The position numbers and the translations under genes were made by a program. From a virus, in the IMG/VR virus record IMGVR_UViG_3300032236_001344, positions 1-36,001 of that record: a DNA stretch of 36,001 bases; one strand, 5' to 3'. Within the stretch, counting starts at the first letter, position 1. The number at the start of each line of letters is the position of its first letter. Positions 8,555 to 36,001 of the stretch are shown piece by piece. The notes below the pieces were generated by a model. It was given only the letters and a program-made list of their open reading frames with translations, was not told the DNA's origin and searched no databases.

Positions 8555-8799
8555 CGGTTGAGCAGGTTGACCGCCTGGTGATCGCCGTTGTGCAGTTCCC
8601 AGAATTCCACATTGGAACGCTTGAGGGTGGGCAGGACATTCCGCTTCCACTTGGCCATCTCGGCGTCGAACTCGTCCCGGGAGTAGGCCACGAATTCGGG
8701 ATGCTCGACCTTGCCGCCGTCGAGGATGACCAGCAGGGCGTGGCAACGGCGCGGCATCTTGTGGGTGTATTGGGTGAGGTTGATGGGTGGTTTTCTCAT
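8551..8799 (-). CDS. Small protein of unknown function
   Basis: This 82-residue protein is flanked by ATGA overlaps on both sides. It has a basic N-terminus, a short hydrophobic strand (HALLVILDGG) and a helix with EFDAEMAKWKRNVLPTL. No helix-turn-helix is obvious, unlike its neighbours. No family was recognised; it may be a partner of the adjacent DNA-binding proteins. Confidence 0.7.
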   Translation of the reverse strand: MRKPPINLTQYTHKMPRRCHALLVILDGGKVEHPEFVAYSRDEFDAEMAKWKRNVLPTLKRSNVEFWELHNGDHQAVNLLNR

Positions 8800-9134: not shown

Positions 9135-9325
9135 AGGCGGCTTCCCTTGTTCTTGTACTCCCCCCAGCCGGCCTTGCGGAAATTGACCTTGTACCGCTGG
9201 GACAGGGAATAGACGGTGGCGATGCTGGTTCCGAGGTGGCGCGCCGCCTGGAGCGGGGTGAACTTGGATGCGTCCATCTCGATCATCCTGACCTTGAGGT
9301 CACCCATGTTATGCTTGCGGTTCAC
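9131..9325 (-). CDS. Small helix-turn-helix protein
   Basis: The 64-residue product has a clear helix-turn-helix: FTPLQAARHLGTSIATVYSL (residues about 22-41), followed by a basic tail (SQRYKVNFRKAGW). The start ATG 9325 overlaps the stop of the upstream coiled-coil gene. The pattern matches its two-domain neighbour at 8796, so the group looks like a duplicated family of small DNA-binding proteins. Confidence 0.75.
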   Translation of the reverse strand: MNRKHNMGDLKVRMIEMDASKFTPLQAARHLGTSIATVYSLSQRYKVNFRKAGWGEYKNKGSRL

Positions 9326-9804
9326 GACTGGGGCTTGCCCTCCTTGGCGGCTTCGTCTGCGGCTCTGTTTCGTTCTTCAATTTTCCATTGTTCCTGTATC
9401 GATGGAAATCCCTTTTTTGCTCGAAGCCATTCATCACTTGCATCGAAATGTCTGTTTCCTGAGAGAAAGCTGATATGGCAAGCAAGGTAATCGCCGGCCT
9501 TGGTCAGCCGCTCGACATCTTCACGGAGAGAGGTGATTACATTCTGTCCGTATTTGTGATGCTCCTCATATTGGCTGTTTTCGAGGGTCAGCCGCTCGAC
9601 CTCGTCTTTAAGTTGAACCACATTAAGCGACAAAGAGTAAATGCCCTTATGAAGATGAGCGTTCTCTATTCCAAGCCTTTCGACCTCGGCCTTGAGGCGG
9701 GCGTTCTCGGCTTCCAGCTCTTTTGCCATATCGCGCTCGATGGTGTAACAACGCCATAAATCAATGACGGCTTCGCTAATTTTGAAAGCATCAGGCTCAC
9801 TCAT
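9322..9804 (-). CDS. Coiled-coil protein, paralogue set member
   Basis: The start ATG 9804 overlaps the upstream stop as ATGA; an earlier in-frame ATG at 9834 lies inside the upstream gene. The 160-residue product has a long coiled coil (residues about 20-110) with repeated units such as ENARLKAEVERL and KDEVERLT. The C-terminal part continues after TKAGDYL, recalling TKAGDDL in the gene at 18079. It shares DNA-level repeats with the genes at 10280 and 10534. Function unknown; a structural or scaffolding role in host takeover is possible. Confidence 0.75.
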   Translation of the reverse strand: MSEPDAFKISEAVIDLWRCYTIERDMAKELEAENARLKAEVERLGIENAHLHKGIYSLSLNVVQLKDEVERLTLENSQYEEHHKYGQNVITSLREDVERLTKAGDYLACHISFLSGNRHFDASDEWLRAKKGFPSIQEQWKIEERNRAADEAAKEGKPQS

Positions 9805-10537: not shown

Positions 10538-11163
10538 GGCTGGCCCTTGTCCTCCTTGGCGGCGTTCAATTCGTTAACATTCATATGTTCATCTTTCAGT
10601 TTCACCATGAACGCAGTAAAATCATCCTTTGGTTTTTGGGCGATACGCTCAAGACATAAACTAGCAACTTGCTCACGGAGCGTCTTTATGTCCTGCGATG
10701 CAATCAGATACCTAGAAGTCGCAAGGGCGTTTTCCTTGGTCAGCCGCTCGACCTGTGCTTGCAATTCCTCGTTCGGGATGATGGTGCGGGTGGTGAAGGC
10801 CGTCAGCCGCTCGACCTCGGCCTTGAGGCGGGCGTTCTCGGCATTCATTTCGTCGTAAGTGGCGTAAGGCAATCCAACAAACATCTTGGCATCAATGTTA
10901 GCCTTGAGGCGGGCGTTCTCGGCTTCCAGCAGGTTCGCCCGGACAAGGTGCGGACAGGTGTCGTCGTCGTGCGGCATGGCCTTGAGACGCTCATTCTCGT
11001 CCATGATGGCCATCGCCTCCCGCCGCATCTGCCCGATCGTGTCAGCCTGGTTCGCGCAACGCAGCTCGGCACTCTTGCAGGCTTTCTGCCAGAATTCCGT
11101 CTCCGAGGCGGCCTTGACCATCTCCGCCCACAACTCGGGGTCCACAGGGATGAATTTGCTCAT
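10534..11163 (-). CDS. Long coiled-coil protein, paralogue set member
   Basis: The start ATG 11163 overlaps the upstream stop as ATGA; the open frame continues upstream but reads as the shadow of another gene. The 209-residue product has a short N-terminal helical domain and then a coiled coil of about 130 residues with three ENARLKA-type units. At the DNA level these are near-exact repeats at about 10811-10843 and 10902-10926. The set may vary in length by repeat gain or loss. Function unknown. Confidence 0.75.
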   Translation of the reverse strand: MSKFIPVDPELWAEMVKAASETEFWQKACKSAELRCANQADTIGQMRREAMAIMDENERLKAMPHDDDTCPHLVRANLLEAENARLKANIDAKMFVGLPYATYDEMNAENARLKAEVERLTAFTTRTIIPNEELQAQVERLTKENALATSRYLIASQDIKTLREQVASLCLERIAQKPKDDFTAFMVKLKDEHMNVNELNAAKEDKGQP

Positions 11164-15283: not shown

Positions 15284-15562
15284 TCAGTTGAGGGTATTGG
15301 AGTGGAGGTCTTTCCAGTTGTCCTGGGCTTCACGGTCCGTGATGCTCCGCAGGTACATCAGCTCCGCTTCGAGGGCGACGCGCTGCTCCCGCAGGTCGTT
15401 CAGTTCGAGGCGAATCTCGAAGTTCGTCTGGCTCATCTGGTGAACGATCTGCGTGAGTGCCTTCACCTGTTCGACCGGGGTGCGGTCGGGCAGGGGGCGG
15501 AACTCATGGACGGGGGCGACGGTCTTCGACGCCTTCTTGGTTTTGGGCTTTTGGTGGCTCAT
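15284..15562 (-). CDS. Small coiled-coil protein
   Basis: The start ATG 15562 overlaps the RecT-like stop as ATGA. The 92-residue product has a basic N-terminus (HQKPKTKKASK) and a long helix from about residue 30 to 80 (LNDLREQRVALEAELMYLR). It sits between the annealing protein and exonuclease genes and may be an accessory factor of the pair. No family was recognised. Confidence 0.65.
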   Translation of the reverse strand: MSHQKPKTKKASKTVAPVHEFRPLPDRTPVEQVKALTQIVHQMSQTNFEIRLELNDLREQRVALEAELMYLRSITDREAQDNWKDLHSNTLN

Positions 15563-16320
15563 AGGGAAATATGCTGCTCGACGGCGGTGAGGAATGGGCC
15601 GGACTTCTTGGCCAGGGTCTCGGCCAGTTCGGGGCTGATGTCTGCCCAACCCTGCTGGGGAGTCAAGTGGCCGACCTGCCGCAGGACTTCGACGGCGGCG
15701 TCCCGCTTGGCTTCTGGGACGAGTTCGTCGAGGGTGAAAGTGTTCTGTCGGGCGAAGGGCTTCGAGGGCGTGGCGTCCAGTTCCTCGACGGTGTAGGTGC
15801 CGAAGCAGCACTCCGGGGCGATGAGGCGGACGCCCTCGCTGATCGCACGGGCGGTCAGCATCCGGCGCGGCCACTTCCGCCAGTTGTCCTTGGGCTTGCC
15901 GTCCTTGCCTAGGGCGGTGCCGTTGCCGACATACTCCTTCATGTCGGCCACGATGACGGCGGACGACGACCCCTTGCGGAATTCGGCGACCACCTTCTCG
16001 TCGGTACGCTCCTGCCAGGCGACCGTGCCGCCGGCCTGCTGGAACTTGGCCAGAAGGGCGTCGGAGCGGATGGCGAGCTGGCCTTGGATGAAGTGGTAGG
16101 TCCGCGCCAGTTCCAGCGGGGACTTCTTCTCGACCATGCATTGCATGGCCAGAATCTCGCCCTGCTCTGGCTTCTCCAGTCCGAAGATGCCGGACTTGAA
16201 GATGGCCAGTCCGAGGGTCTTAATCGCCGACATGGGGTCGGAGATGCGATCGTAGACTCCGGAGGCGGCGGAGAGTTCGTGCGCGGGTTGCGTGACGGGG
16301 ACGAGGTCGTTGTTTTCCAT
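15559..16320 (-). CDS. RecT-like single-strand annealing protein
   Basis: The 253-residue product starts at ATG 16320, overlapping the SPFH stop by one base; the frame is open further upstream but that part lies inside the previous gene. The body has features seen in phage RecT-type recombinases: a segment with YHFIQGQLAIRSDALLAKFQ, a WRKWPRRMLTARAISEGVRL helix, and a Pro-rich then acidic C-terminus. It would anneal single strands made by the exonuclease encoded next to it. Family assignment is from overall pattern. Confidence 0.75.
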   Translation of the reverse strand: MENNDLVPVTQPAHELSAASGVYDRISDPMSAIKTLGLAIFKSGIFGLEKPEQGEILAMQCMVEKKSPLELARTYHFIQGQLAIRSDALLAKFQQAGGTVAWQERTDEKVVAEFRKGSSSAVIVADMKEYVGNGTALGKDGKPKDNWRKWPRRMLTARAISEGVRLIAPECCFGTYTVEELDATPSKPFARQNTFTLDELVPEAKRDAAVEVLRQVGHLTPQQGWADISPELAETLAKKSGPFLTAVEQHISL

Positions 16321-17339: not shown

Positions 17340-17774
17340 TCAGAGGTTGTGCTGCTGCGCGTGCGAGAGCAAGCAAAATGCGTCAGAAGTTTTGAGCGTG
17401 ATTTTTTCCACGAAAGGGAAGCGACGCTGGGCCTCCGCCTTCAGCTTGTTCTTCCAGACTGTCGTCGTCGCGCCGTCCTTCTTCCCGATGCCCAAGGTCT
17501 TCTGCCACTCCTGCGGCGTCACCAGCACGACCTTGAACCCACGCCCCTGGAACAACCCTACGATCCAGCCGTAGGAGTAACCCAGTTTGAAAGACGCCGA
17601 AGCCGGGATAGGGCCGACGAAAGCCGGCACCTTCTCGATGACCACCGTCGTGTCGGGCGTCGGGCATAGGTCGATGAGTTCGTCATTGCCTCCCTGCATG
17701 AACGCACCGTCGCCGTGCATCTGGTACGCCCAGCCGCCGTTGGCACCCGGGTCGATGGCGAGGTAAGGCTTCAT
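17340..17774 (-). CDS. RuvC-like Holliday junction resolvase
   Basis: The 144-residue product shows the RNase H fold motifs of RuvC-type resolvases: IDPGANGGWA (Asp8), VVIEKVP (Glu47) and TSDAFCLL (Asp131); a fourth acidic residue is not evident. It would cut four-way junctions and branched DNA before packaging. It lies in the recombination arm and overlaps the upstream stop as ATGA. Confidence 0.85.
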   Translation of the reverse strand: MKPYLAIDPGANGGWAYQMHGDGAFMQGGNDELIDLCPTPDTTVVIEKVPAFVGPIPASASFKLGYSYGWIVGLFQGRGFKVVLVTPQEWQKTLGIGKKDGATTTVWKNKLKAEAQRRFPFVEKITLKTSDAFCLLSHAQQHNL

Positions 17775-19067: not shown

Positions 19068-19560
19068 AGACCCAGAGGGGTACCGTCCCGAAAAACAAAG
19101 GCAATGAAAAACTTTATACCCCAGGGGGGGAAATCCTCCCGAAAAATAAAAGGGAGCGCAATATTTCAAGGTGGTCTCTTTTCTGGCTGCGATATATCGG
19201 CCAGTCTTCGCCGGAAGATATCGAGCCGTTATTCGCCCGTGTTAATTGGCCGAAGTATTGTTAACGCAGTATGCCCGCCGTGTTGATCCCCGCAAGACGG
19301 CGGCGATTTTGGCCCATTATTTTAGGCAAAGTTTTCGGCCCGCGCTGCGTAAAAAATTCGAGCCACGCCGGCCATGAAACTTTTTTCCTATTAGAATTTT
19401 CTGAAAATTTTTAGGGGGGGATGGTTATGAGTCGTCCTCCCGATTTTTAGCAAAATGCCCAAAATCGTCGTAATATGATTGTAACAATCGTAACATGATA
19501 ACATTAGTCATGTTTAAATCATTACCCGGCAACCCGGGATTTGAATGAAAGGCAAGTTAG
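19068..19560. other. AT-rich intergenic region with repeats, candidate operator or origin
   Basis: No gene longer than about 60 residues is credible here. The region has runs of A and T, the direct repeat CGTAAYATGAT at 19469-19479 and 19489-19499, the palindrome GATTGTAACAATC at 19477-19489, the inverted repeat ACATGA/TCATGT at 19493-19498 and 19508-19513, and two minus-strand GGGAGGA/TCCCCCC pairs (about 19117-19143 and 19415-19447). It lies upstream of the leftward arm and probably holds its promoter and operators, but no clear -35/-10 pair was found. Confidence 0.6.
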
Positions 19561-19883
19561 TAACCTATGTTTCGTAAACCCCTATTCTATTGCCGGCAAT
19601 CCTAGCGGTGCCGGCGGCACCGGCGGGCGGTTGTGACCCTTCCGGGGCGGCACGGTGCCGGCATCGGGCCGGCGGCAAGGGGTAGGGCAGCACCAGGCGG
19701 GCAAATGCCGGCACGGGGCAAGGCAAGCGGCACGGTGATCACAAGCCCGCGCGGCAGTGGTCTAGTTTGCCCTAGGCGGGGCGGCACGGCACGGGGCAGG
19801 AAAGGGGAAGGGGTTGCCGGCAAACCGGCGGCATAGCACGGCACAGGGGCTTGTGCGGGGCGGTTGAACGGCAAAGCACTAGG
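19561..19883. other. GC-rich low-complexity non-coding DNA
   Basis: This stretch is made of loosely repeated GGCACGG, GGCAAGG and CCGGC words and contains the 10-bp palindrome TTGCCGGCAA at 19590-19599 and 19814-19823. No gene is supported. It is similar in texture to 21840-22135 and unlike the rest of the genome. Confidence 0.6.
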
Positions 19884-19914
19884 CAAAAGAAAAGCCCCGG
19901 GGCTGCCGGGGCTT
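19884..19914 (-). terminator. Rho-independent terminator (minus strand)
   Basis: AAGCCCC at 19892-19898 pairs with GGGGCTT at 19908-19914 around a nine-base loop. On the minus strand it is followed by a T-rich tract (TTTTCTTTT). It ends the accessory cassette, 26 bases after the gene stopping at 19940. Confidence 0.75.
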
Positions 19915-19939
19915 GTAAGGGTTGACGGTTGCCGGGGCT

Positions 19940-20485
19940 TCATGCCGGCAAATCCCGGGGCGGAGGCACCGGCTTACTTTCCTCAAATCTGATAAAGCCC
20001 GCTTGCTTATCAAAAAATCGTGCCAGGCGCGGCAGCTCCTCCGGCGGCAACCGTTTAATGATAGCCACGGCGACATATCCCAAATAACACGGGCTAACCC
20101 CCGTTGCCATTAAACGGCAAGCGCCGGCCAGGGCGCCCGCATGATCCGCCCCACTGTCCCAAATGTATCCCGGCGCGCCGCGCCCATATGCCGTTGCCTT
20201 AATCAAACGCAAGGCAAGCTTGGCCAGGCGGGGCTTGTGCCCGGTCCACGGGATAAAGACATGATTAGACCTATATAAATAAGCTCGAAAGCAAACTGTC
20301 CCGCCCTGGTCATAGGACAAATAACCGGCAACCGTCCGACGATTGCCGGCAACGGTAACTTGCACGGCAGCAGGGAGGTAAAAGCATGTTTCAGGGTGAC
20401 CGGTAATAATGGCCGATCTCTTAATCCCATCCCGGCAAAGCGCGCTTACCCTATCCCCTTGAATCAAATAATTTGGATTACGCAT
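19940..20485 (-). CDS. Accessory cassette protein of unknown function
   Basis: The start ATG 20485 overlaps the stop of the gp88-like gene by eight bases (ATGCGTAA), so the two are probably co-translated. The 181-residue product has a beta-rich N-terminal half (VQVTVAGNRRTVAGYLSY), a central PGYIWDSGADHAGALAGAC segment and a C-terminal helical part with PPEELPRLARFF. No family was recognised. Base use is more GCCGG-rich than in the phage arms. Confidence 0.7.
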   Translation of the reverse strand: MRNPNYLIQGDRVSALCRDGIKRSAIITGHPETCFYLPAAVQVTVAGNRRTVAGYLSYDQGGTVCFRAYLYRSNHVFIPWTGHKPRLAKLALRLIKATAYGRGAPGYIWDSGADHAGALAGACRLMATGVSPCYLGYVAVAIIKRLPPEELPRLARFFDKQAGFIRFEESKPVPPPRDLPA

Positions 20486-21341
20486 GAGAAGCAAAAGCTG
20501 CGGCAGCGCGGATAACAAACCCGGATTTGTCGGCCCGGGCTTTGCCTTTTGCCTTAAGGATTCCAATCCGTCCTTTGCCGTCATTCCCCTTGCGGTCCAG
20601 AAAGCGGAGATCATGCCGGTCCGCGCTAAAGGTGGGGCGGGCTTCCGTCATTCCAGGCAAGGCAAACCGTTGCCCCACCCTTACCCCTTCGGCCACGGCT
20701 GCGATATTCACGCCGGCGGCCAAGGCGATTCCGGCGGAAACGGCATTAGACTCGGAAAGGGAAAAGGTAATATGATAATTGGCGGGCATCTCGCCTTTTG
20801 CGTAAGCTATGGCCCGGCGAAAACTTTTTGTATAATCATAAAAACGGACCTTATGGAATTCGGCGAATAACTCCGGGGCTAACTTTTCCCACGGCAAATC
20901 CGAGGTTCCGTTAAGACGCACAACGGGCCGGAGTCCGCGCCGTTCGGCCGATCGCATAAGGGCGGCAATCTCTCCTTTAAGGGCGGCAATAAATCCGGCG
21001 CGGTTGTTATGTAGGAAACGGGTACGCATGACACGGGCAGCGTTAACCGCCTCGAAAATGCCGGCACGACCCGCCGTAAACAAACAAGCGGCCAGGCAGC
21101 CGGCGGACGCATGGGGGCAAAGGTTGCCAAGGCCGGCAAGCTGCCCCGGGGCAAGGTATAGAATCCCGGTCAAGTAACCGGAGGCCGTGCCTTTGTCCGT
21201 CTTTGCGTCCGCTTCTACGGAGAGTAGATAGGACGGCATTTTAAACGGCAGCAGCGCGGCCTGGTGAATCACCGGGGCGGGAAGCTTAAACGCGGGATTT
21301 TTTCCAAAGGGCAGCGCGGGCGGGCAGTGGTTTGTTTTCAT
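20478..21341 (-). CDS. gp88-like phage protein with CX6CX3C cluster
   Basis: The 287-residue product starts at ATG 21341 after the leader CCCTCCCCTGAC, like other cassette genes; an ATG six codons upstream is less likely. It resembles the 'gene product 88' family known from mycobacteriophages and other phages. Visible motifs: CPHASAGCLAAC (Cys75, Cys82, Cys86), RLNGTSDLPWE (residues 142-152), FYDYTK (167-172) and TFSLSESN (192-199). The three cysteines and the regular strand motifs recall a metal- or iron-sulfur-binding alpha/beta barrel, perhaps a nucleic acid or nucleotide modifying enzyme, but this is inference. It is paired with the gene at 19940. Confidence 0.75.
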   Translation of the reverse strand: MKTNHCPPALPFGKNPAFKLPAPVIHQAALLPFKMPSYLLSVEADAKTDKGTASGYLTGILYLAPGQLAGLGNLCPHASAGCLAACLFTAGRAGIFEAVNAARVMRTRFLHNNRAGFIAALKGEIAALMRSAERRGLRPVVRLNGTSDLPWEKLAPELFAEFHKVRFYDYTKSFRRAIAYAKGEMPANYHITFSLSESNAVSAGIALAAGVNIAAVAEGVRVGQRFALPGMTEARPTFSADRHDLRFLDRKGNDGKGRIGILKAKGKARADKSGFVIRAAAAFASHA

Positions 21342-21355
21342 GTCAGGGGAGGGAA

Positions 21356-21667
21356 TCAAAGGGAATGGGATTGAGCGCGGACTATGATAGAATCCGCGGC
21401 ATGTTCCAGGGCGCCGGCGCTTTCATGTCCAAGGGAAAACCGGGGGAATTCCCTCCGGCAAAAACGGGCGGAGGCATAAAGCTTTGCAACGGCATCCACC
21501 TGGAGGAGATCGGCCAAGCAAATGCAACCGGCGACCGCATCCAAGTCATTCAAAACGAAAACGGCAGCGTCCGGAGCGTCCGGTTCCAGCGTATTAGCAA
21601 AGTTATCCGCTTCAATGGCGGCAACTTGGATCACCTCGGAAACGGTCAAAAGATTAGGTGTTTTCAT
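21356..21667 (-). CDS. Small acidic accessory protein
   Basis: The 103-residue product starts at ATG 21667 after CCCTAAT, the same kind of leader as its neighbours; an upstream in-frame ATG exists but overlaps the tiny upstream gene. It is helical and Ala/Asp-rich (LNDLDAVAGCICLADLLQVDAVAKLY reads as one amphipathic region, given here in part). Function unknown. It lies 14 bases before the gp88-like gene. Confidence 0.65.
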   Translation of the reverse strand: MKTPNLLTVSEVIQVAAIEADNFANTLEPDAPDAAVFVLNDLDAVAGCICLADLLQVDAVAKLYASARFCRREFPRFSLGHESAGALEHAADSIIVRAQSHSL

Positions 21668-21677
21668 ATTAGGGAAA

Positions 21678-21764
21678 TTAGAGGGAGAGAATAAGCACGG
21701 CGGTTGCGTAGAGAAGCACGGCGAACAATAGGCCGGCGAGCGCATCAAGTAGGGTTTGTTTCAT
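21678..21764 (-). CDS. 28-residue single-pass membrane protein
   Basis: The frame runs from ATG 21764 to TAA 21678-21680. Residues 8-28 are almost entirely hydrophobic (ALAGLLFAVLLYATAVLI and onward). Its leader CCCTAATCCCTAAC followed by ATGAAA matches those of the next two cassette genes, which supports it as a real first gene of the cassette. It could be a toxin-like or membrane-targeting peptide. Confidence 0.55.
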   Translation of the reverse strand: MKQTLLDALAGLLFAVLLYATAVLILSL

Positions 21765-22231
21765 GTTAGGGATTAGGGTTGCGAGATAAGACAAAGGGAA
21801 GCCCGGCCTAGGTCAATACCCTTTTACTAAATAAGTTTGAACCCCTTTGTTAGATCGGGCGGGCGGTTGACCAGGCGGGCGGGATAGGCGGGCGGGCGGC
21901 CCTAGCTCATTAGGCAAGCGGCACGGGATCATGCGCGGCACGGCAACCGCAAGCCCCAAACCCATCCAAGGCAAAGCCCGCGCAGCCTTGCCACCGGCGG
22001 CAACGGCAAGGCAAGGCACGGCAACCGCCGGCCCTTCCGACTGGACAAGCCCGGAAGCCCTGGCCCGCCGGCAATCGGCCACAAGCGGCGCGGCAATGGC
22101 AACGGCACGGGCCAAAAGCCCCGCAGTTTAATGCCCGAAACAAAAGCGGTTGACCTATCTTTTTTTTAAATATGACCCTTCAATACATGATAAAAATACT
22201 CATGATTCGACCCCCTGGAAGGAAATCTATT

Positions 22232-22263
22232 CCCCCCCTCCGCCACGGGGGGGGCGAAGCCCC
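22232..22263 (+). promoter_or_regulatory. Mutually exclusive hairpins in late leader
   Basis: Seven C at 22232-22238 can pair with eight G at 22247-22254, or the same G run can pair as GGGGC (22251-22255) with GCCCC (22259-22263). The two forms cannot coexist. No T tract follows, so it is not a simple terminator. Confidence 0.5.
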
Positions 22264-22306
22264 GCCGACCCCATTGAAAACTCGGGGGTAAACCGTTCAA
22301 AACCAT

Positions 22307-22465
22307 ATGTATTGCTACTATGTTTGTCTAGGCAACCACAGTAGCAATCACAGTAGCAAGACATATAGACAATACATTTACTTTGTATCCCCTTTCAGGG
22401 GATAAGACAAAGTAAGTAATGGCCAAGCCATTATTGGCTTTACGCTTGGAAGCGTAGCCATAATG
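22307..22465 (+). promoter_or_regulatory. Highly structured leader before the late genes
   Basis: Successive inverted repeats: ATGTATTG/CAATACAT (22307-22314 with 22370-22377), ATTGCTACT/AGTAGCAAT (22311-22319 with 22340-22348), TTGTCTA/TAGACAA (22324-22330 with 22366-22372), TTACTTTGT/ACAAAGTAA (22378-22386 with 22407-22415) enclosing ATCCCC/GGGGAT (22387-22392 with 22398-22403), TAATGGC/GCCATTA (22417-22423 with 22427-22433), and CATTAT..ACGCTT/AAGCGT..ATAATG (22429-22447 with 22450-22465). A direct repeat CACAGTAGCAA occurs at 22337 and 22349. Confidence 0.65.
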
Positions 22466-22473
22466 TCTGGCCA

Positions 22474-22854
22474 ATGAGCCAACCCTTTCGCCCCTTCTTC
22501 CGCCGCCGGCGCGCCGCCGGACAGCCACCGATCACCCGCAAGGTCGAGTCGCCTTGGGCGAGGGCGTGGCGTCTGTCGCCCGAGCGGATGAAGCAGCACA
22601 TCGCCGACCTGAACGAGGCCAGGACGGCCAAGTCGGAGGAGGCGGCCCAGCTCGTCCAGGCGGTGATCAACCTCATCCCGGCGGACAAGACCTACCGCGC
22701 CCACGAACTGCGAGACCTCTTCGCCGACGAGTGGGGTCGGTGCTACGACGAACCCCTGACCAAGAAGGCCGCATGGAACAAGGTTCGCAAGGCCATGCGT
22801 CACGGGATGCTCGGGCGGGATGAAAAAGGTTTGATATATCCACGGCATGGGTAG
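22474..22854 (+). CDS. Small helical protein, first late gene
   Basis: The 126-residue product has a strongly basic N-terminus (RPFFRRRRAAGQ) and a helical C-terminal half with a winged-helix-like segment (LTKKAAWNKVRKAMRHGML). It probably binds nucleic acid. The start ATG 22474 overlaps a four-codon upstream frame as ATGA and lies just after the structured leader. It may regulate late expression or take part in packaging. Confidence 0.7.
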   Translation: MSQPFRPFFRRRRAAGQPPITRKVESPWARAWRLSPERMKQHIADLNEARTAKSEEAAQLVQAVINLIPADKTYRAHELRDLFADEWGRCYDEPLTKKAAWNKVRKAMRHGMLGRDEKGLIYPRHG

Positions 22855-22859
22855 CCGGG

Positions 22860-23141
22860 TTGACTTGTGAACAAGTTGGGCATAACGATGGCGGTGTGGT
22901 CAACTTCGACGAACACCTGCCGGACGATGACGAATTCAAGGAACTCGCCAGCGAGCTGGCCGAACTCCGCCGCATCGGCGCGCTGAACATCGTCCGGGCC
23001 TCGCACATCGCCGACATCAACGGCGACAACGAGGTGGCGTGGCTGCTGGTGCGGGAGGCGTCCGTGATGATCTCGGTCGCCACCAAGGTCGAGGAACTCA
23101 TCGGGGTCGAACCTCCGGAAAACAACGATGTCAATCTATGA
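22860..23141 (+). CDS. Small acidic helical protein
   Basis: The start is TTG 22860 or GTG 22896; no ATG is available, so the N-terminus is uncertain. The 93-residue (or 81-residue) product is acidic and helical (DDDEFKELASELAELRRIG). It overlaps the next gene by 14 bases. A short inverted repeat (22863-22876) lies in its first codons. Function unknown. Confidence 0.6.
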   Translation: MTCEQVGHNDGGVVNFDEHLPDDDEFKELASELAELRRIGALNIVRASHIADINGDNEVAWLLVREASVMISVATKVEELIGVEPPENNDVNL

Positions 23142-23691
23142 CGAATACAAGAGGTTCTGGAAGATGCTGTCGAAAGAGCAGAGGGAAGCTTTGTCGAAAA
23201 ACGGCTTCGACCCCATGCGACCGGGAGACGACGGGGTGCCGCTCGCGCACCGTCACTTCGGCGGAGAGCCGCCCGACAGCGGCGACGGCGGAGCGGAAAC
23301 GGACGCCACGCACATCTTCAACAAGAACTGGGGCATGGAGTATGACATCAATTTCAGACAGATGGCCCTATGGCGGAACAAGGAAAACGAAGCCGAGGAG
23401 CAAGAGATGACCAGCCGCACCTACACCCACGAGGAGATGCTCGATGTCCTGCGGAAGGTTCTCTCCGTCCTGGGCAACTCGCTCGAATGCACCTGCCTGC
23501 GGCTGGCCCTCGGACTGCCAGATCAGCCGACGATGACTGCGGTGGCCGAGACGCACAACCTGACGAGGGCTGCGGTGTCGGCCCGGGTGAAGACCATCCA
23601 GCGTCGTTTGAAACTTCCTCCTTCGCTGTACATGAAGTCGGAACACGCCTGCAAAAAACTGTCCAACGCCCGGAGGAACAAACTCAAATGA
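23128..23691 (+). CDS. Helix-turn-helix protein before the terminase genes
   Basis: The 187-residue product has an acidic, Gly-rich N-terminal half and a C-terminal helix-turn-helix of sigma region 4 or resolvase type (PTMTAVAETHNLTRAAVSAR, residues about 133-152, followed by VKTIQRRLKLP). It probably binds DNA, as a late regulator or packaging-site factor. The next gene starts inside its stop as ATGA. Confidence 0.75.
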   Translation: MSIYDEYKRFWKMLSKEQREALSKNGFDPMRPGDDGVPLAHRHFGGEPPDSGDGGAETDATHIFNKNWGMEYDINFRQMALWRNKENEAEEQEMTSRTYTHEEMLDVLRKVLSVLGNSLECTCLRLALGLPDQPTMTAVAETHNLTRAAVSARVKTIQRRLKLPPSLYMKSEHACKKLSNARRNKLK

Positions 23692-26284: not shown

Positions 26285-26304
26285 TTTACACGGGGCTAAA
26301 CCCA
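26285..26304 (+). promoter_or_regulatory. TTGACA / GGCTAAACCCA element, copy 2
   Basis: TTTACA (one mismatch) at 26285-26290, then CGG and GGCTAAACCCA at 26294-26304. The ATG of the gpW-position gene starts two bases after the element. No Shine-Dalgarno is present. The 100 bases before it, after the terminase stop, hold no clear gene. Confidence 0.6.
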
Positions 26305-26305
26305 A

Positions 26306-26572
26306 ATGGCACGCCCTCAAGGAGTATTCCTCATTTTCGAGATTTGCGACATCAAGGAAATCGTGGCCACGGCTTTGGCTCTCCTGAAGCAGGGCAAGAC
26401 CATGATGGAATACGGTGACTCCGGCACCTCCGTGGTGAAGCAGTTCCCGATGGACATCAACACGGTCCTCATCGAAGCCCGCTACGCCCTGATGGTCAAA
26501 GACCCCCAGACCTACGGATCCATCGACCGTGTCAGGGTGATCAATATGCTCAATAACTTCCGAGGATTCTGA
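26306..26572 (+). CDS. gpW-position head-tail joining protein
   Basis: The 88-residue product lies between terminase large subunit and portal, where lambda encodes gpW. It is mostly helical, with a C-terminal part ALMVKDPQTYGSIDRVRVI like small connector proteins. Identity rests mainly on position and size. The start follows element copy 2, and its stop overlaps the portal start (TGATG). Confidence 0.7.
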   Translation: MARPQGVFLIFEICDIKEIVATALALLKQGKTMMEYGDSGTSVVKQFPMDINTVLIEARYALMVKDPQTYGSIDRVRVINMLNNFRGF

Positions 26573-28179
26573 TGAAAAAGCCCGCCACCAAGAAGCCTGC
26601 CGTCCCGCAGGTGAAGAAGCCCAAGACGCCGACGGTGGCCCGCAATGCGGCCCCGCAGAAGGTCGCATCGGGCGGTGGCAGCGGCCCGGGCATCTTCTCG
26701 AACTTCGAGTCCGCCAAGTTCAGCAACAAGCGTTCTTGGATTTGGTCGTCCTGGCCGCAGGACTTCAAGAAGACCATGACGGTCTTCGACCGCATGGAGA
26801 CCACGCGCAAGATGCGCTGGCTGGAACTCAATGCGGGACTCATCAGGCAGGTGCTGGCCGACATGGCCCTGTACACCGTCGGCAACGGCATCAAGCCGCA
26901 GGCCCAGTCCGGCGACGAGATGTGGGATGACGCCGCCGAGGCTTACTTCAAGCGTTGGGGTTCCCGTGCCTGCGATATCACGGGTCGTTTCTCTTTCTTC
27001 GAACTTCAACACATCTGCTGCCGCCTGATGGACCGTGACGGCGAGGTCTTCATCATCAAGACCCGTGGACCCGGAGGCGAACCCCGCCTCCAGATCATCG
27101 AATCCCACCGTGTCGGCAATTCGTCGAACAATGAAGTGCCTCCGGGCATGGTGGACGGCATCCTCTTTGGACCCTACGGCCAGCCCATCTCCTACAATGT
27201 GATCCGCTCTGACGGCTCAAGCCGTCTCGTACCCGCAAATGCGGTCATCCATCTGTTCGAGCCGGAACTCGCCTCGGGTGCGCGGGCTTACAGCCCCCTC
27301 CAGCATTCCATCAATAATCTGGTGGATATGCTGGAGATTCTTTCGCTGGAGAAACTGGCGGTCAAGACCAGCTCGGACATCACGCGCACCATCAGCCGTG
27401 AGAACCCGCAGTTCGACGGTTCGCAGTCCGACTTCGAGGCGTTCGGCATGAAGCCGCAGGACTACGGCGACGGCATGACCGACCCCAGCGAGGCTTCGAC
27501 CTTCCTCGGCGGCAAGGTTCTCGCCCTGGCTCCCGGTGAGAAACTCGAGTCCTTCGAGTCCAACCGCCCCAACAAGACCTTCGACGGGTTCATCGAACAC
27601 CTTGAGCGTGACTCGCTGGCGGGGATGCTTCCCTACGAGTTCGTGGCCAATCCCACGAAGGCCGGCGGTGCCGTCATGCGTTTCGTCGTCGCCAAGGCCG
27701 ACCGCAAGTTCTCGCACCGTCAGGCCATCATGGTCCAGCGGGCCTTGACCCCCATCTGGGGTTACATCATCGGTTCGGCGATCAAGGAAGGCTACCTTCC
27801 CGCCAACGAGTACTGGTACAATGTCTCGTGGACGACTCCCCGCCGTGTCACCGTGGACGCAGGACGGGACTCGCAGCAGAACCGCATGGACATCGAGTCC
27901 GGACTCAAGAGCCTCACGGACAACTATCTCGAAGAGGGTCTCGACCCGAAGGAGAAGATGCGCGAGAACGCCGCCGAGAAGAAGTACCTCATGGAACTAT
28001 CCGAGGAGTTCGGCGTCCCGTTCTCCCTGCTCTACAAGCCGCAGAATGTCGCCCCGTCGGACATCAACGCATCCGTCGCCCAGAAGCCCGAGGAGCCTGC
28101 GATGGACGACGGCGCGAAACTGGTGGACGACGACGGCGAAGATGTCGATCCGGACGACCCCAACACCTCGAACAAATAA
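26572..28179 (+). CDS. Portal protein, lambda gpB type
   Basis: The 535-residue product has a Lys/Pro-rich N-terminal tail (residues 1-30), a core with RQVLADMALYTVGNGI, LMDRDGEVFIIKTRG and IHLFEPE segments typical of lambda-type portals, and an acidic Pro-rich C-terminal tail (about 500-535). It forms the 12-mer ring through which DNA enters and leaves the head. The start has GAGG seven bases upstream. It is followed three bases later by the head protease. Confidence 0.92.
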   Translation: MKKPATKKPAVPQVKKPKTPTVARNAAPQKVASGGGSGPGIFSNFESAKFSNKRSWIWSSWPQDFKKTMTVFDRMETTRKMRWLELNAGLIRQVLADMALYTVGNGIKPQAQSGDEMWDDAAEAYFKRWGSRACDITGRFSFFELQHICCRLMDRDGEVFIIKTRGPGGEPRLQIIESHRVGNSSNNEVPPGMVDGILFGPYGQPISYNVIRSDGSSRLVPANAVIHLFEPELASGARAYSPLQHSINNLVDMLEILSLEKLAVKTSSDITRTISRENPQFDGSQSDFEAFGMKPQDYGDGMTDPSEASTFLGGKVLALAPGEKLESFESNRPNKTFDGFIEHLERDSLAGMLPYEFVANPTKAGGAVMRFVVAKADRKFSHRQAIMVQRALTPIWGYIIGSAIKEGYLPANEYWYNVSWTTPRRVTVDAGRDSQQNRMDIESGLKSLTDNYLEEGLDPKEKMRENAAEKKYLMELSEEFGVPFSLLYKPQNVAPSDINASVAQKPEEPAMDDGAKLVDDDGEDVDPDDPNTSNK

Positions 28180-28182
28180 ACC

Positions 28183-29262
28183 ATGTACGCCCTTTCCAAC
28201 GCATTCAAGACCTTCATGCCGATGCTCATCGAGCCGGCGAAGGCCAAGGCATATCTCGACAAGGTGGCCGAACTCTCCCCGACCGACCTGAAGGCGGGCG
28301 ACGACCTGGAAGACATGATGGAGATGCTGTTCGGGCCGCGCCCGATGCTCATCAAGTCCGGCGACATCGCCGTCATCCCCGTGAAGGGCGTCATCGGTTC
28401 CGGCCTCACGGAGCTGGAAAAGATGATGGGTGCGACCGATGTCGAGGACATCCAAGAGATGCTCGAAGACGCCGAGCGTGACCCTGGCGTCGAGATCATC
28501 ATCTTCGACTTCGACACCCCCGGAGGCACCGTCACCGGCGTACCCGAGATGGCTGCCCGCATCCGCAACTGCAAGAAGCGGACCATCGGCTGGACCTGCA
28601 AGCAGTCCTGCTCCGCCGGGATGTGGCTGATGAGCCAATGCGACGAGGTCTATGTCAGCCCGTCGTCAATCGTCGGCTCCATCGGGGTCTACATCCCGAT
28701 CTACGACATGAAGGCCGCCTATGCCGAGGAAGGCATCACGGTCGACCTCATCAAGGCAGGCTGGGCGAAGGGGGCTGGTTACACCGGCACCTCCATGACC
28801 CCTGAGCAGCGGAAACTCTTCCAGGACGATGTCGATGAGATGCACAAGTGGTTCATCGGCGACATCAAGGCCGTCCGTACCTATGCCGACGAGGCCGATA
28901 TGCAGGGTCAATGCTGGTCCGGCAAGAAGGGGGCTGAAAAGAACCTCGTCTCCGGCCTCATGGATACCTTCGACGACCTGCTGATGGCCATCGACCCCGA
29001 GGAATACGCCATCTACGAGCGCGCGGAAAAGCAGGTTCCAATCGGTGGCCCCGCAAACTATGCCAAGGCCGCCGATGTGTCCCCGGAGCAGGGCGACGGA
29101 CCGGAGCAGGAAGTCGAACCCGTCACCGACGGCAAGAAGAAGAAAAAGAAGAAGAAGCCCGACGGCACGGATTCCGAAGAGGACGAAGACGAAGGCGAGG
29201 AGATTCCCGAAGACCCCTCCGTCGAGCCTATTCAGACCGATCCGCAGAAGCCCAAAGTTTGA
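28183..29262 (+). CDS. S49-family head maturation protease
   Basis: The 359-residue product has the SppA/gpC fold: IAVIPVKGVIG, FDFDTPGG (residues about 108-115), catalytic Ser144 in SCSAGMW, and Lys196 in GWAKGAG, 52 residues later, the same spacing as the Ser-Lys dyad of Bacillus SppA. Residues after about 285 form a tail rich in Lys then Asp/Glu, including a run of eight Lys. In lambda the protease gpC shares its frame with the scaffold Nu3; here the scaffold frame follows in the same frame after one TGA stop. It would degrade the scaffold during head assembly. Confidence 0.9.
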   Translation: MYALSNAFKTFMPMLIEPAKAKAYLDKVAELSPTDLKAGDDLEDMMEMLFGPRPMLIKSGDIAVIPVKGVIGSGLTELEKMMGATDVEDIQEMLEDAERDPGVEIIIFDFDTPGGTVTGVPEMAARIRNCKKRTIGWTCKQSCSAGMWLMSQCDEVYVSPSSIVGSIGVYIPIYDMKAAYAEEGITVDLIKAGWAKGAGYTGTSMTPEQRKLFQDDVDEMHKWFIGDIKAVRTYADEADMQGQCWSGKKGAEKNLVSGLMDTFDDLLMAIDPEEYAIYERAEKQVPIGGPANYAKAADVSPEQGDGPEQEVEPVTDGKKKKKKKKPDGTDSEEDEDEGEEIPEDPSVEPIQTDPQKPKV

Positions 29263-29277
29263 CACTTGGCTAAACCC
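29259..29277 (+). promoter_or_regulatory. TTGACA / GGCTAAACCCA element, copy 3
   Basis: TTGACA at 29259-29264 contains the protease stop TGA (29260-29262), then CTT and GGCTAAACCC at 29268-29277, directly followed by the scaffold ATG. No Shine-Dalgarno is present. Confidence 0.6.
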
Positions 29278-29739
29278 ATGACGCTCGAAGAACGCCTCAA
29301 TTCGCTGAAGGAAGCCTTCACCGGCAAGACCGCCGAGGTCGAAGCCAAGGCCAACGAAGTTTCCTCCCTGACCGCCAAGGTCGAAGAGCTGAACGCCGCC
29401 ATGTCCGCCAAGGATGCGGCCATCGTCGAGTTCACCGCCAAGGTCGAAGACCTGACCGCCAAGCTCGCCGCCGCCGAAGAGATTCGTGCCAAGGCCGAAG
29501 CCCAGGCTGCGACCATCGCCGCCTCGCAGGAAACCGCCGGCAAGAAAGCCGCCGTCATCGCCGCCTCCGTCGGCGTCCAGCCCCTTGAAGTCACCCCCTC
29601 CGAGGTCGCCGCTTCTTCCAAGAGCGACGCAGAGATCTCCGAGGAGTGGGTGGCCCTGAAGCAGAAGGACGCCAAGGCGGCCTCCGAATTCTACGGCAAG
29701 AACCGTCCGGCCATCCTCCGTGCCGCCGGTCTTCGCTGA
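29278..29739 (+). CDS. Coiled-coil scaffold protein
   Basis: The 153-residue product starts at ATG 29278 directly after element copy 3; a TTG at 29266 in the same frame is an alternative. Residues about 1-90 form a long coiled coil (EERLNSLKEAF, KVEELNAAMSAKDAAI). The C-terminal segment ALKQKDAKAASEFYGKNRPA probably contacts the capsid protein. Position between protease and major capsid matches lambda Nu3. It is in the same frame as the protease, separated by one stop codon. Confidence 0.8.
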   Translation: MTLEERLNSLKEAFTGKTAEVEAKANEVSSLTAKVEELNAAMSAKDAAIVEFTAKVEDLTAKLAAAEEIRAKAEAQAATIAASQETAGKKAAVIAASVGVQPLEVTPSEVAASSKSDAEISEEWVALKQKDAKAASEFYGKNRPAILRAAGLR

Positions 29740-29770
29740 TTCCACTCTCCCCCAACCCTAACTCACAACT

Positions 29771-30685
29771 ATGTCTAACAGCATTGGTGGTTTGACCCTC
29801 CAGCTCGTCGCTGAAGAGTCCCTCCGCACCCTCGTCCCCGAACTCGTTCCCCTGACGGAAATCGCCGTCACCGATTTCGGTAATTATGTCGCCGAGCGCG
29901 GCACCACGGTCCACACCCGTTACGCCGACTCGTTCACCGCCACCACCTTCGACCCGGCCAACGGCTTCGTGCCTGCCAATGCCGTCTCGACCGATGTCCC
30001 GGTGACCATCGCCGACCTCAAGTATGTCGATGTCGCCTTCAGCGACTACGAAGCCTCCACGCTCTCGCTGGAACGCCTCCGTCGTCTGTTCTTCGCGCCG
30101 ATCGCCAACGCCGTCCAGAAGTCCCTCTTCGACGATGTCCTCTCCAAGGTGACCAGCACGAACTTCACGACCGCCGCCTACTCGGGTGCCAAGTCCGGCT
30201 TCAACCGTGTGGCCATCGCCAACGCTGCGACCGCCCTCACCAAGGCCAACCTGCCCCACGCCGACCGCAAGCTCCTCCTCTCCCCTGATGCGATGGGCCA
30301 GCTCGTCCAGGATGCGTCCGTTGCCCAGACCTTCTCGTACGGCAACAGCGATGTCATCCAGAACAACGCCATCAGCAAGAAGCTCCACGGCTTCTCTGTC
30401 AGCGAGTACAACGGCTTCCCCTCCTCGGGCGACGCTTACAGCCAGGGTCTCAACGGCGTGGCCTCCTGCAAGGAAGGTCTCGTCATCGTGACCCGTGTTC
30501 CTGCCACCCCGACCACGGGCGGTGGCGAGCAGATGATCGTCCAGGACCCGGACAGCAAGTTCTCCTTCGCTCTCCGCTACTGGTACAACTGGCAGGCCGG
30601 TAAGCACAATATGTCGGCCCTCTGGCTCGTCGGTTCGGCTGTTGGTAACCCCAACGCCCTCCAGCGCATCGCCTTCACCTCGTAA
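29771..30685 (+). CDS. Major capsid protein
   Basis: The 304-residue product begins MSNSIGGLTLQLVAEESLRT, with SPDAMGQLVQDAS and KLHGFSVSEYNGFP segments typical of coat proteins. It follows the protease and scaffold genes. Codons are strongly biased (GTC, ACC, AAG), as for a highly expressed gene. The leader is A/C-rich (CCCAACCCTAACTCACAACT) without Shine-Dalgarno. It belongs to the HK97-fold group; sub-family is uncertain. Confidence 0.88.
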   Translation: MSNSIGGLTLQLVAEESLRTLVPELVPLTEIAVTDFGNYVAERGTTVHTRYADSFTATTFDPANGFVPANAVSTDVPVTIADLKYVDVAFSDYEASTLSLERLRRLFFAPIANAVQKSLFDDVLSKVTSTNFTTAAYSGAKSGFNRVAIANAATALTKANLPHADRKLLLSPDAMGQLVQDASVAQTFSYGNSDVIQNNAISKKLHGFSVSEYNGFPSSGDAYSQGLNGVASCKEGLVIVTRVPATPTTGGGEQMIVQDPDSKFSFALRYWYNWQAGKHNMSALWLVGSAVGNPNALQRIAFTS

Positions 30686-30691
30686 GTTTTC

Positions 30692-30711
30692 GGGGGAGTT
30701 TAAAATCCCCC
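30692..30711 (+). other. Hairpin after the capsid gene
   Basis: GGGGGA at 30692-30697 pairs with TCCCCC at 30706-30711 around GTTTAAAA. It lies seven bases after the capsid stop and may protect the mRNA end or act with the terminator that follows. Confidence 0.6.
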
Positions 30712-30728
30712 AAAGCGACAATGCGAAG

Positions 30729-30765
30729 CCCTCTCCCCGCGCCACGGGGGGAGGGTTTCTTATTT
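30729..30765 (+). terminator. Strong rho-independent terminator after major capsid
   Basis: CCCTCTCCCC at 30729-30738 pairs with GGGGGGAGGG at 30746-30755 (one G-T pair) around a seven-base loop, followed by TTTCTTATTT. The stem loop resembles that at 22232. Genes after it must have their own promoter or depend on partial readthrough. Confidence 0.85.
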
Positions 30766-30783
30766 TGACAATGGGCTAAACCC
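30765..30783 (+). promoter_or_regulatory. TTGACA / GGCTAAACCCA element, copy 4
   Basis: TTGACA at 30765-30770 is followed by ATG and GGCTAAACCC at 30774-30783, directly before the ATG of the next gene. ATGGG and CCCAT here could form a small hairpin with a CTAAA loop, placing the start codon at its foot. No -10 box is seen. Confidence 0.6.
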
Positions 30784-31122
30784 ATGTCGGGAATCACGGA
30801 AGAATGGGCCTCAGACGCCTCGGAAATCCTTTCCGAGATTCCCAAGGCCGTGACCGTTAAAAACGTCCCAGGCGGCTCGCCAGTGGCCCTTAACGCCCTG
30901 ATGTCGCAGCCGGCCATCATGCAGGACTTGGAAACGGGCGGTTTCCTGAACCATACGTCCTTCGACATGAAGTTCCTGCGGACGGACGCCGTCGCCAATC
31001 CGGGGCTTATCGCCTTCGGGAATGTGGTGGCCTATCAGGGTCAGGAGTACCGGATTATGACCGTTACCGACCGCCCGCCCTCGGCTTGGGTGATCTGCAA
31101 GGTCCAGACCAAGGTCCAGTAA
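30784..31122 (+). CDS. Head-tail connector or head completion protein
   Basis: The 112-residue product starts right after element copy 4. It has a C-terminal half (YQGQEYRIMTVTDRPPSAWV) with the strand pattern of small connector proteins of the gpFII type. Position after the capsid gene supports a neck role. Family not certain. Confidence 0.75.
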   Translation: MSGITEEWASDASEILSEIPKAVTVKNVPGGSPVALNALMSQPAIMQDLETGGFLNHTSFDMKFLRTDAVANPGLIAFGNVVAYQGQEYRIMTVTDRPPSAWVICKVQTKVQ

Positions 31123-32084
31123 TGGCCGATGTGGTCACAGTAGCGAAGGGAGTAAAGGTAGACTATACCGAACTCTCAAGGCACCTGGCCGTTTATGCTT
31201 TGGTGATGCGTATGAATATGCACGAAGTAATTGAGCAGCAGGCTCGATACTTCGCCAAGGATATGTGCGATTACACCCCGCCCTTCTCCGGAGCTGGCCC
31301 GCAGACCACCAAGGGCGGCGAAGGCGGCTTCGGAAGCAAGGCTAGGGATAAGGGTAAAGCAGCCGTCAGCCGGGATGTCCGCAAGATTTTCGCGCCATTG
31401 GCCCAAGCCCCGGCTACTGCGATTGCTGCCTCAAATCAATTAGGCATTCTTTCGGCATGGATGACCGAAAAGATGAAACTCCCCGCCCCCCATGAGCCTG
31501 AATATATTTTCAAGATGGCTGAAAAAAGGGGGTTCATCGGACAGGGAGAATTCGATTATTTCCAGCGCGTCGAATCCAGAAAAGGAGGATCACCTTCCGC
31601 TGTTTATCTTGGAATCACCGAAGGAACCGTAAAGTCCATCCATCAACTGCGAAGGGGTGGTCCATCCTATAAGGTCAACAAGACCGAAAAATCCCTTGTC
31701 AATTATGTCGATGACTGGAAGGTCGTTGAACGGTATATCAAGCGTGTCCAGCAGCGCGTCGGAAAACTGAAGTCAGGCTGGTACTATGCCGGCCTTAAGC
31801 TCGGCAAGATGCCCACCTCCGCATGGATTGCCAATCAAGGCAACAACACGATGGTCTATTATACCAAGTACGAAGGCCCATACATGACCATTCGTCTTGG
31901 ATCAACCATCGGTCGCAATTACAGCCAGGGCTACCACTTCATGCGGATGGCCATGAATCACCGGGCTTATGCCCTTCGCATCGCCATGCTTAATGTCCTC
32001 AAAGGGCCGCGCAACCAAGGCAGGCTTCAAGATGTCATCCGTCGCCTTCAGGGCGGTTTCAATTTAAAAAACACCACCGAATAA
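31122..32084 (+). CDS. Neck or tail completion protein
   Basis: The 320-residue product starts at ATG 31122, overlapping the previous stop (TAATG); an upstream in-frame ATG lies inside the previous gene. It has an N-terminal helical part, a Gly-rich loop (TKGGEGGFGSKARDKGK), and later GAYY- and Tyr-rich segments. Position suggests a gp10-like or gpZ-like tail completion role, but no family is clear. It is unusually long for that role. Confidence 0.65.
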   Translation: MADVVTVAKGVKVDYTELSRHLAVYALVMRMNMHEVIEQQARYFAKDMCDYTPPFSGAGPQTTKGGEGGFGSKARDKGKAAVSRDVRKIFAPLAQAPATAIAASNQLGILSAWMTEKMKLPAPHEPEYIFKMAEKRGFIGQGEFDYFQRVESRKGGSPSAVYLGITEGTVKSIHQLRRGGPSYKVNKTEKSLVNYVDDWKVVERYIKRVQQRVGKLKSGWYYAGLKLGKMPTSAWIANQGNNTMVYYTKYEGPYMTIRLGSTIGRNYSQGYHFMRMAMNHRAYALRIAMLNVLKGPRNQGRLQDVIRRLQGGFNLKNTTE

Positions 32085-32524
32085 TGAGCATCAATCTTTA
32101 TAGTTTCCGCACTATCCTAGAGGAGAAGGTGGCCGGCTATCTGGCCTCCAAGTTCCCCGGCCTCGCCGTGCATAAGGGCGTGACCGATGAACTCCGGGTG
32201 CTGCCGATCATCATCGCCCACGCCGAGTCCTCAAACATGGTTCCTGACCTTGGTGCCAACAACCTTGGCAATTACACCGCCGTCCTGAAGGTCTATGTCT
32301 ATTCCAGCGCGGACGACGAGACCCTGGACACCCACCGTCTCCGGGTTACCGAGGTGATCGGTGCCATGACCGATATTGAGGCACTCAAAGCTCTCTGGAA
32401 TCCGACCGACGACGGCCAGCTCTACAACCTCTGGATTCAGAACGACGAGGAAGGCATGAGCCAGCGGCGGTACGGTAATGTCATTGAATTCGTAGTCTGG
32501 GGTGTCCTACCCCCCGCCCCTTGA
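32084..32524 (+). CDS. Tail terminator-like protein
   Basis: The 146-residue product overlaps the previous stop (TAATG). The layout of an N-terminal helix (EKVAGYLASKFP), strands (AVLKVYVYSS) and a helix (THRLRVTEVIGAM) resembles gpU-type tail terminators that cap the tail tube. Its stop TGA lies inside element copy 5. Confidence 0.75.
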   Translation: MSINLYSFRTILEEKVAGYLASKFPGLAVHKGVTDELRVLPIIIAHAESSNMVPDLGANNLGNYTAVLKVYVYSSADDETLDTHRLRVTEVIGAMTDIEALKALWNPTDDGQLYNLWIQNDEEGMSQRRYGNVIEFVVWGVLPPAP

Positions 32525-32540
32525 CACTTGGCTAAACCCA
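32521..32540 (+). promoter_or_regulatory. TTGACA / GGCTAAACCCA element, copy 5
   Basis: TTGACA at 32521-32526 contains the previous stop TGA; CTT and GGCTAAACCCA (32530-32540) follow, and the next ATG is seven bases further on. Same form as copy 3. Confidence 0.6.
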
Positions 32541-32547
32541 TACGACT

Positions 32548-32889
32548 ATGGCCGATACCGAAACCCAATTTGGTGTAGCTCACTTTTACGGGCTATATGA
32601 TGACCGCACCTACATGACCGTGCAGTCCGACTCCCTGTCCGATTCCTACAAACTTGATGTCGAAGTTGCGGACGAAGTGGGTCGTGTCATCACCGACCGT
32701 CTTGACGACAAGTTCAAGGAAATCACCTTGGAAGGCGTGATTCTCGCCGAAGGCGTTATCCCGCTCATCGGCAGCACCTTTGAATATCACAGCGTGACCT
32801 ACATCCTGAAGTCCCTTGAGAACAAGGGTACTAACAAGGATTTCCGCAAGCTGACCGTCAAGGGCGTCAAGTACCAAGAAATCGCCTAA
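32548..32889 (+). CDS. Small tail protein, possible tube component
   Basis: The 113-residue product is beta-rich (KEITLEGVILAEGVIPLIGS, HSVTYILKSLENKG) with no membrane segment. It lies between the tail terminator and the chaperone-like gene, where tail tube proteins are encoded. It is shorter than most tube proteins, so a small-tube or tube-associated role is inferred. It follows element copy 5. Confidence 0.65.
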   Translation: MADTETQFGVAHFYGLYDDRTYMTVQSDSLSDSYKLDVEVADEVGRVITDRLDDKFKEITLEGVILAEGVIPLIGSTFEYHSVTYILKSLENKGTNKDFRKLTVKGVKYQEIA

Positions 32890-35624: not shown

Positions 35625-36001
35625 TGAAATCCATATCCGGATTCAATTCTAGTTCGGTCAACGGATCATTCTCCCCAGGCGAACCTATCTTTGCGTCGTC
35701 ATTGAACAAATTGGCCACGGGGATTGAACTGACCCGTACCATGATGTCGAATGATGTCCAATATCAGTCCAACACGGGCGGTACTGCGTACTCGCTTGGC
35801 CAGCAGTTGTATACCGGCGGAAGCGGTAAGCTCGTACCGTGGACAACCATCGTATCTCCGGAAGTCGTCGATGGCGTAACGAAGTACTATGTGAAGGTCG
35901 TGCGCGGCGTCTGCAATTACACGCAAAGCAAGTTCCCATTCAGTCCCAAGACCACGGGCGTCGCTAGCATCGACCCTGACGAGGAAGGCTGCCCGGTCTA
36001 T
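35624..36001 (+). CDS. Tail-tip or structural protein, N-terminal part (continues at 1-819)
   Basis: The start ATG 35624 overlaps the previous stop. The frame is open to the end and continues at base 124 (equivalent to base 36002). The 119 residues or so encoded here are Ser/Gly/Thr-rich (FNSSSVNGSFSPGEPIFASS). See the entry at 1-819 for the rest. Confidence 0.85.
   Translation, partial: MKSISGFNSSSVNGSFSPGEPIFASSLNKLATGIELTRTMMSNDVQYQSNTGGTAYSLGQQLYTGGSGKLVPWTTIVSPEVVDGVTKYYVKVVRGVCNYTQSKFPFSPKTTGVASIDPDEEGCPVY
35879..36001. repeat. Terminal direct repeat, right copy
   Basis: Identical to bases 1-123; shows that the sequence closes on itself with a unit of 35,878 bp. Confidence 0.95.

Follow-up and report, generated by a model that had tools for sequence, protein, structure and literature searches.

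Start-associated sequences (SAS) of cluster K mycobacteriophages are 13-bp repeats containing an AGGAG able to pair with 16S rRNA, typically located 3–7 bp from the start codon of non-structural genes in the right half of the genome (PMC3203893). Late promoters of T4 are used by host RNA polymerase with gp55/gp33 (PMC2988020), a precedent for a host core enzyme working with small phage sigma-like parts, whilst those of the AR9/phiKZ group, AACA-N6-T(A/G), are assigned to a phage multisubunit RNA polymerase, with long leaders in AR9 (PMC5312081). We found nothing in the literature on leaderless late phage promoters, or on Verrucomicrobia start sites, matching the element described here, a 20-mer (TTKACA-N3-GGCTAAACCCA) present at five gene starts of the virus record IMGVR_UViG_3300032236_001344 (36,001 nucleotides, analysed at full length and referred to below as the window). 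On the basis of sequence comparison, these copies are likely to be phage-specific compact late promoters, at which transcription would start at the last base of the element (position 20).

The window is a complete phage contig with terminal redundancy: a unit of 35,878 bp is followed by a direct repeat of its first 123 bp (1–123 and 35879–36001), so that the genome closes on itself. Primase/helicase, helicase and exonuclease genes form a leftward block, and a rightward, presumably late, arm runs from ~22.4 kb through terminase, portal, protease, head, connector, tape measure and fibre genes and across the contig ends to ~5.4 kb. The element occurs in five exact copies, all on the + strand, which share GGCTAA-acc-C-A following a first hexamer and spacer that read TTTACA-cgg in copy A (26285–26304), TTGACA-ctt in B (29259–29278) and D (32521–32540), TTGACA-atg in C (30765–30784) and TTGACA-tag in E (833–852). 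As the contig is terminally redundant, the rightward arm includes the copy at 833 as well, and the element is confined to that arm, as stated in a preliminary description of the sequence, which had reported five coding-strand copies at gene starts. No sixth match with up to three mismatches is present on either strand of the window; shuffled sequences gave a mean of 0.35 matches at this threshold and in no case reached five, and the expectation for the full 20-mer, both strands considered, is ~5e-6. In copies B and C the predicted transcript start (29278 and 30784, respectively) is the A of the ATG itself, such that the mRNAs would be leaderless; in A, D and E the predicted starts (26304, 32540 and 852) would give leaders of 2, 8 and 14 nt before ATGs at 26306, 32548 and 866. 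Measured from the CCC of the element, the gap to the start codon is accordingly 0, 0, 2, 8 or 14 nt, near the earlier estimate of 0–13 bases, and in copies B and D the TGA of the upstream gene does lie inside TTGACA (stops ending at 29262 and 32524).

A genuine signal would be expected to recur before the same genes in related phages, and it does so in eight long relatives and in some 200 distinct contexts. A scan of IMG/VR for the exact motif gave more than 118 stretches with a match, and relatives were gathered from this database by head protein (80) and by terminase (80). The eight long relatives (32–37 kb; three lineages; terminase identity 67–93%) each carry four to six copies, on one (late) strand only, and contain zero matches to a reversed control pattern. 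Five is the usual number, at the same gene junctions as in the window; one relative has a sixth copy (G002:21351) and another (G008) has four, with no homologue detected by tblastn of the protease or scaffold gene, which flank copy B. A possible weak sixth copy before 22860 (TTGACTgggGGCTAAgg in one relative) was dropped since the fixed A of the element is absent. It is near certain that the element is a conserved phage signal. A host origin of the motif was rejected, as 177 genomes of an Opitutae order, a host group presumed from P8625 (below), gave three matches, not above the reversed control.

Alignment of 206 distinct contexts (and of 53 sites from 13 representative contigs) refines the unit to TT(G/T)ACA-N3-(G/C)GC(T/A)AA-N3-Y-A. 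The spacer length is that set by the search pattern, but the recurrence of five copies per genome at the same junctions shows that the phages use this single length. Two positions outside the search core are almost invariant: position 20 is A in 200 of the 206 contexts, and position 19 is C or T in 204. The A is present at 172 of the 173 sites where it is not part of an ATG, and nearly all exceptions come from contigs with chance-like matches outside this gene setting. Columns −64 to −20 (numbered from position 20 as +1) carry at most 0.40 bits each, with information limited to about −19 to +3; the sites for this profile were chosen for A at position 20, and the statistic for the A rests on the 206 contexts instead. 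The lack of upstream information indicates that there is no −35 element at normal spacing. The ATG starts exactly at the position-20 A in 28 contexts from several lineages (copies B and C in the lineage of the window; A, B or C in others); elsewhere it lies at least 2 nt past this A, mostly 2, 3, 8 or 11–14 nt, and never upstream.

The second half of the element changes in concert across the copies of a genome. For the triplet at positions 16–18 (−4 to −2), mean mismatches are 0.66 within a genome and 2.05 for the same site across genomes, a within-genome value as low as this being obtained in none of 5000 permutations. The second hexamer is shared within genomes in the same manner, whereas the N3 spacer drifts by site. 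Triplets common to the copies of one genome, from a nine-lineage table assembled by hand with two contigs merged for some lineages, include ACC, AAA, AGG, ACT, TTC and TAG, among others; some near relatives of the window are less uniform, with ACGC, AACC or ATCC at single sites. Concerted change of the triplet and second hexamer suggests a lineage-specific trans-acting factor, and is the pattern expected of a promoter set read by one evolving factor.

In every lineage, a strong hairpin of ~11–16 pairs with a T-rich tail separates the major head protein gene from copy C, ending 2–9 nt before the element or reaching into it. In the window, this predicted intrinsic terminator is at 30725–30759 (+), its T-run continuing into copy C. 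The stem sequences differ between lineages, but the arrangement is the same, also in the cultured phage P8625 (below). As RNA polymerase halted at the terminator cannot transcribe the genes beyond it, their expression is most simply explained by renewed initiation at the element.

P8625 (NC_029047.1; L192 in our set), a Verrucomicrobia phage, is the nearest relative in culture (28.6% by head protein, 24% by terminase); no other cultured phage is close in head protein, and in terminase P8625 belongs to the top matches, although these are distant. No close DNA relatives were found among cultured phages, and no terminase-based prophage relatives in GTDB genomes, in which one P8625-like contig was found in an Opitutae metagenome-assembled genome (MAG). 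The window-type element is absent from P8625. At the corresponding junctions there is a different repeat, TTGNCA or TTGCAA exactly 36 nt before an ATG (5412–5448, 9620–9656, 10736–10772, 15558–15594, 17505–17541 and 22406–22442), a distance seen for six of 52 P8625 genes, all other distances between 20 and 60 being represented by 0–1 genes; one of the six sites depends on the choice of ATG 9656 over the annotated TTG 9620. These look like sigma-70-spaced leaderless promoters, and promoters are not mentioned in the P8625 genome paper (PMC4642752). The two phages are alike in the gene junctions concerned, in a start codon located at the predicted transcript start, and in the terminator before the copy that follows the head gene. 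They differ in that TTGACA is at −36 in P8625, the normal sigma-70 spacing, with TATCCA-N5-TGGATA between, and in that no homologue of the window's 23128–23691 product was detected there. The parallel supports the junctions being promoter sites, and leaderless starts being used, in this host group, as far as sequence can indicate. The palindrome TATCCA-N5-TGGATA is present in several P8625 copies, and similar sites are seen in an Opitutae MAG contig (L276) near 2661, 6868 and 7984. The annotated TTG start (9620) of P8625 gp13 lies inside a promoter-like element, ATG 9656 being the likelier start. With respect to the host, the names of two IMG/VR records, L349 (IMGVR_UViG_2579778730_000008), which carries a CGCTAATTCCA element, and L323 (IMGVR_UViG_2914150438_000003), have a pattern suggesting single genomes and not metagenomes; their source organisms could help to settle it.

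The suggestion of a phage-specific start or transcription signal is borne out, with transcription favoured over translation by the invariant Y-A at 19–20 nt from the first T, the terminator at one site, the concerted second half and the P8625 parallel. A signal at the level of translation, marking starts within long late mRNAs as has been proposed for SAS, is unlikely. It would fit the invariable location of the element shortly before start codons on the coding strand, the occasional upstream stop codon within it, and the scarcity of Shine-Dalgarno sequences among the genes of this phage, judged by eye; however, the gap of 0–14 nt is unlike that of ribosome-pairing elements, there is a free spacer and no conserved stem, the triplet changes in concert, and a strong terminator directly precedes copy C in every lineage. 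As had been noted, the element is not itself a Shine-Dalgarno site: GGCUAAA has no core pairing with the CCUCC of 16S rRNA, for which the usual gap would be 5–9 nt. SAS is the closest look-alike, likewise a short, asymmetric repeat in one orientation directly before start codons (within a few bases), uncommon in the host, sometimes holding an upstream stop, and in some copies having GGG...CCC as outer letters. It differs in sequence (there is no 13-bp GGGATAGGAGCCC-like repeat here), in spacing and in gene class, the present element lacking a Shine-Dalgarno core, preceding late structural genes and being followed by the fixed Y-A. A small RNA hairpin, GGG-CTAAA-CCC, was rejected, since there is no covariation between the base preceding GGC and the triplet that follows, and no known RNA family or tRNA was found.

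Nor do the copies resemble sigma-70 promoters, in agreement with the preliminary description, which had remarked on the lack of a −10 box at normal spacing. The region is not enriched in promoter-like matches over shuffled sequences, and none of the matches uses the copies; TTGACA is not paired with a TATAAT-like hexamer 16–18 bp away, and the fixed A lies 19 nt beyond the initial T of TTGACA, where ~36 nt would be expected of a start. Normal use of TTGACA by sigma-70 was thus rejected: a −10 is missing at this spacing and, with start codons 0–14 nt past CCC, transcription would begin within most of the genes. Alternatively, the element might be only the operator of a dimeric phage regulator, a weak dyad (TT..C.NNN.G..AA) overlying host promoters that are otherwise unrecognisable. 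The clear P8625 dyad, at about −21 to −5 inside promoter-like sites, and the possibility that the helix-turn-helix (HTH) candidate considered below is a dimer, lend something to this proposal, which we nevertheless judge improbable: no host −35 or −10 surrounds the copies, the Y-A at a fixed distance belongs to the conserved unit, and symmetry is poor, the first half being nearly invariant whilst the second varies by lineage. Cleavage of a long late transcript before position 20, releasing separate leaderless mRNAs, would equally account for the fixed Y-A 5′ end and the leaderless starts, but is very improbable, as little RNA would remain to be cut at copy C, which a terminator immediately precedes, the nuclease would need to recognise unstructured RNA as far as 19 nt 5′ of its cut, and promoter-like elements stand at the corresponding junctions of P8625.

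PHROGs and Pfam scans of the window proteins, covering all large ones and part of the small open reading frames, revealed no phage RNA polymerase family, so that it is probably the host's own enzyme that a phage factor redirects. A T7-type promoter does not fit, there being no single-subunit RNA polymerase among the scanned proteins. With T4 there would be more in common, namely recognition near the melting region without contact of sigma region 4 to a −35, putative phage sigma-like parts on a host core, and several late units; by contrast, family searches gave no gp55/gp33 homologue here (proteins in the gp55 role being highly diverged), the element reaches to −19 and is not AT-rich, and no link to a sliding clamp is known. 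Promoters of the AR9/phiKZ group are similarly short and end in a pyrimidine-purine start, but differ in sequence and distance, and the scans revealed no polymerase of that type in this phage.

The 23128–23691 (+) product, a 187-residue protein encoded upstream of the terminase genes and kept in eight of eight long relatives, is a possible, still tentative, reader of the element. Its C-terminal HTH resembles sigma-70 region 4: for residues 99–162, sigma-70/A region 4 was the top match in both Foldseek (prob 0.99, E 0.24) and VIA-align (Z 5.4). The predicted model has a pTM of 0.39 overall, the N-terminal half being poor and the C-terminal HTH more confident. Among lineages with GGCAAA in place of GGCTAA as second hexamer, the protein is known from two, L321 and the L232/L184 group, and in both its recognition helix is altered (NRA.ISY.VKRIQ versus TRA..S.RVK.IQR). 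A profile of the family gave no match in PDB sequences, and only weak HTH-type matches in Pfam and PHROGs. A second candidate regulator (22474–22854, +; 126 residues, winged-helix-like) is encoded by the first gene of the rightward arm and is conserved along with the element; its fold search returned generic winged-helix-type matches only. Three small adjacent early HTH-like proteins (8357–9325, −) are alternative candidates, one of which (8796–9134, −) apparently contains two HTH repeats, with low-identity counterparts in every long relative.

In the mechanism we propose, genes at 22.4–26.2 kb, acting as an upstream middle operon, would make at least one factor after early transcription; the factor or factors, the best candidate being the 23128–23691 protein, would steer the host polymerase to the five copies. 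Each copy would be a compact promoter spanning about −19 to +1, with TTKACA at −19 to −14, an unconstrained spacer of 3 bp, (G/C)GC(T/A)AA at −10 to −5, the genome-specific triplet at −4 to −2 and Y(−1)A(+1) as the start, yielding mRNAs that begin at the A of AUG or 2–14 nt earlier. The late arm would thereby be split into five units with one promoter each (portal/protease, scaffold/head, connectors, tail and fibres/lysis), and the terminator after the head gene would let the abundant head product be made separately from the connectors.

Several considerations weigh against this promoter reading or its proposed factor. The resemblance to sigma region 4 is weak (with E and pTM as above, and Z below 8), and TTGACA at −19 is not where such a domain would bind in a normal holoenzyme. 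The helix change in both GGCAAA lineages may be a single shared event. No terminator comparable to that before copy C was seen upstream of the other four copies, and the true host is deduced only from P8625. That the start codon never lies upstream of position 20 is supportive but not decisive, since conservation of the element itself already bars some upstream positions.

Unit A starts with a gene for an 88-residue protein with no assigned function (26306–26572, +), followed by portal and head protease; unit B with a gene that is scaffold-like by position (29278–29739, +), followed by the major head protein (29771–30685, +; phrog_283); and unit C with a gene for 112 residues with no assigned function (30784–31122, +). 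The first gene of unit D (32548–32889, +; 113 residues) belongs to the tail region by position and leads to the tape measure protein, and that of unit E (866–1186, +; 106 residues) precedes a long fibre-like gene. Three small genes open the rightward arm, before the terminase genes and ahead of the first copy of the element. Between the arms, 19200–22400 appears to be a control region of skewed, low-complexity composition with many GCCGGCA and GGCAAGGC words, which includes a GP88-family gene (20478–21359, −).

Taken further, the element may represent a novel class of phage promoter, with TTKACA and a second half tuned to each genome within −19 to +1, used by host RNA polymerase together with a small phage protein that bears a single sigma-4-like domain, and giving leaderless or near-leaderless late mRNAs, in a group present in many metagenomes, an extension we put forward with some reservation. 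If correct, it would map transcription in a phage group that is widespread and essentially uncharacterised, its closest relative in culture being a phage of Verrucomicrobiota, with five late units marked at single-base precision and a named candidate phage factor. The translation of virion genes that lack Shine-Dalgarno sequences would be accounted for by late mRNAs being leaderless, and the concerted second half would offer natural promoter–factor pairs for studying the joint change of a promoter and its reader.

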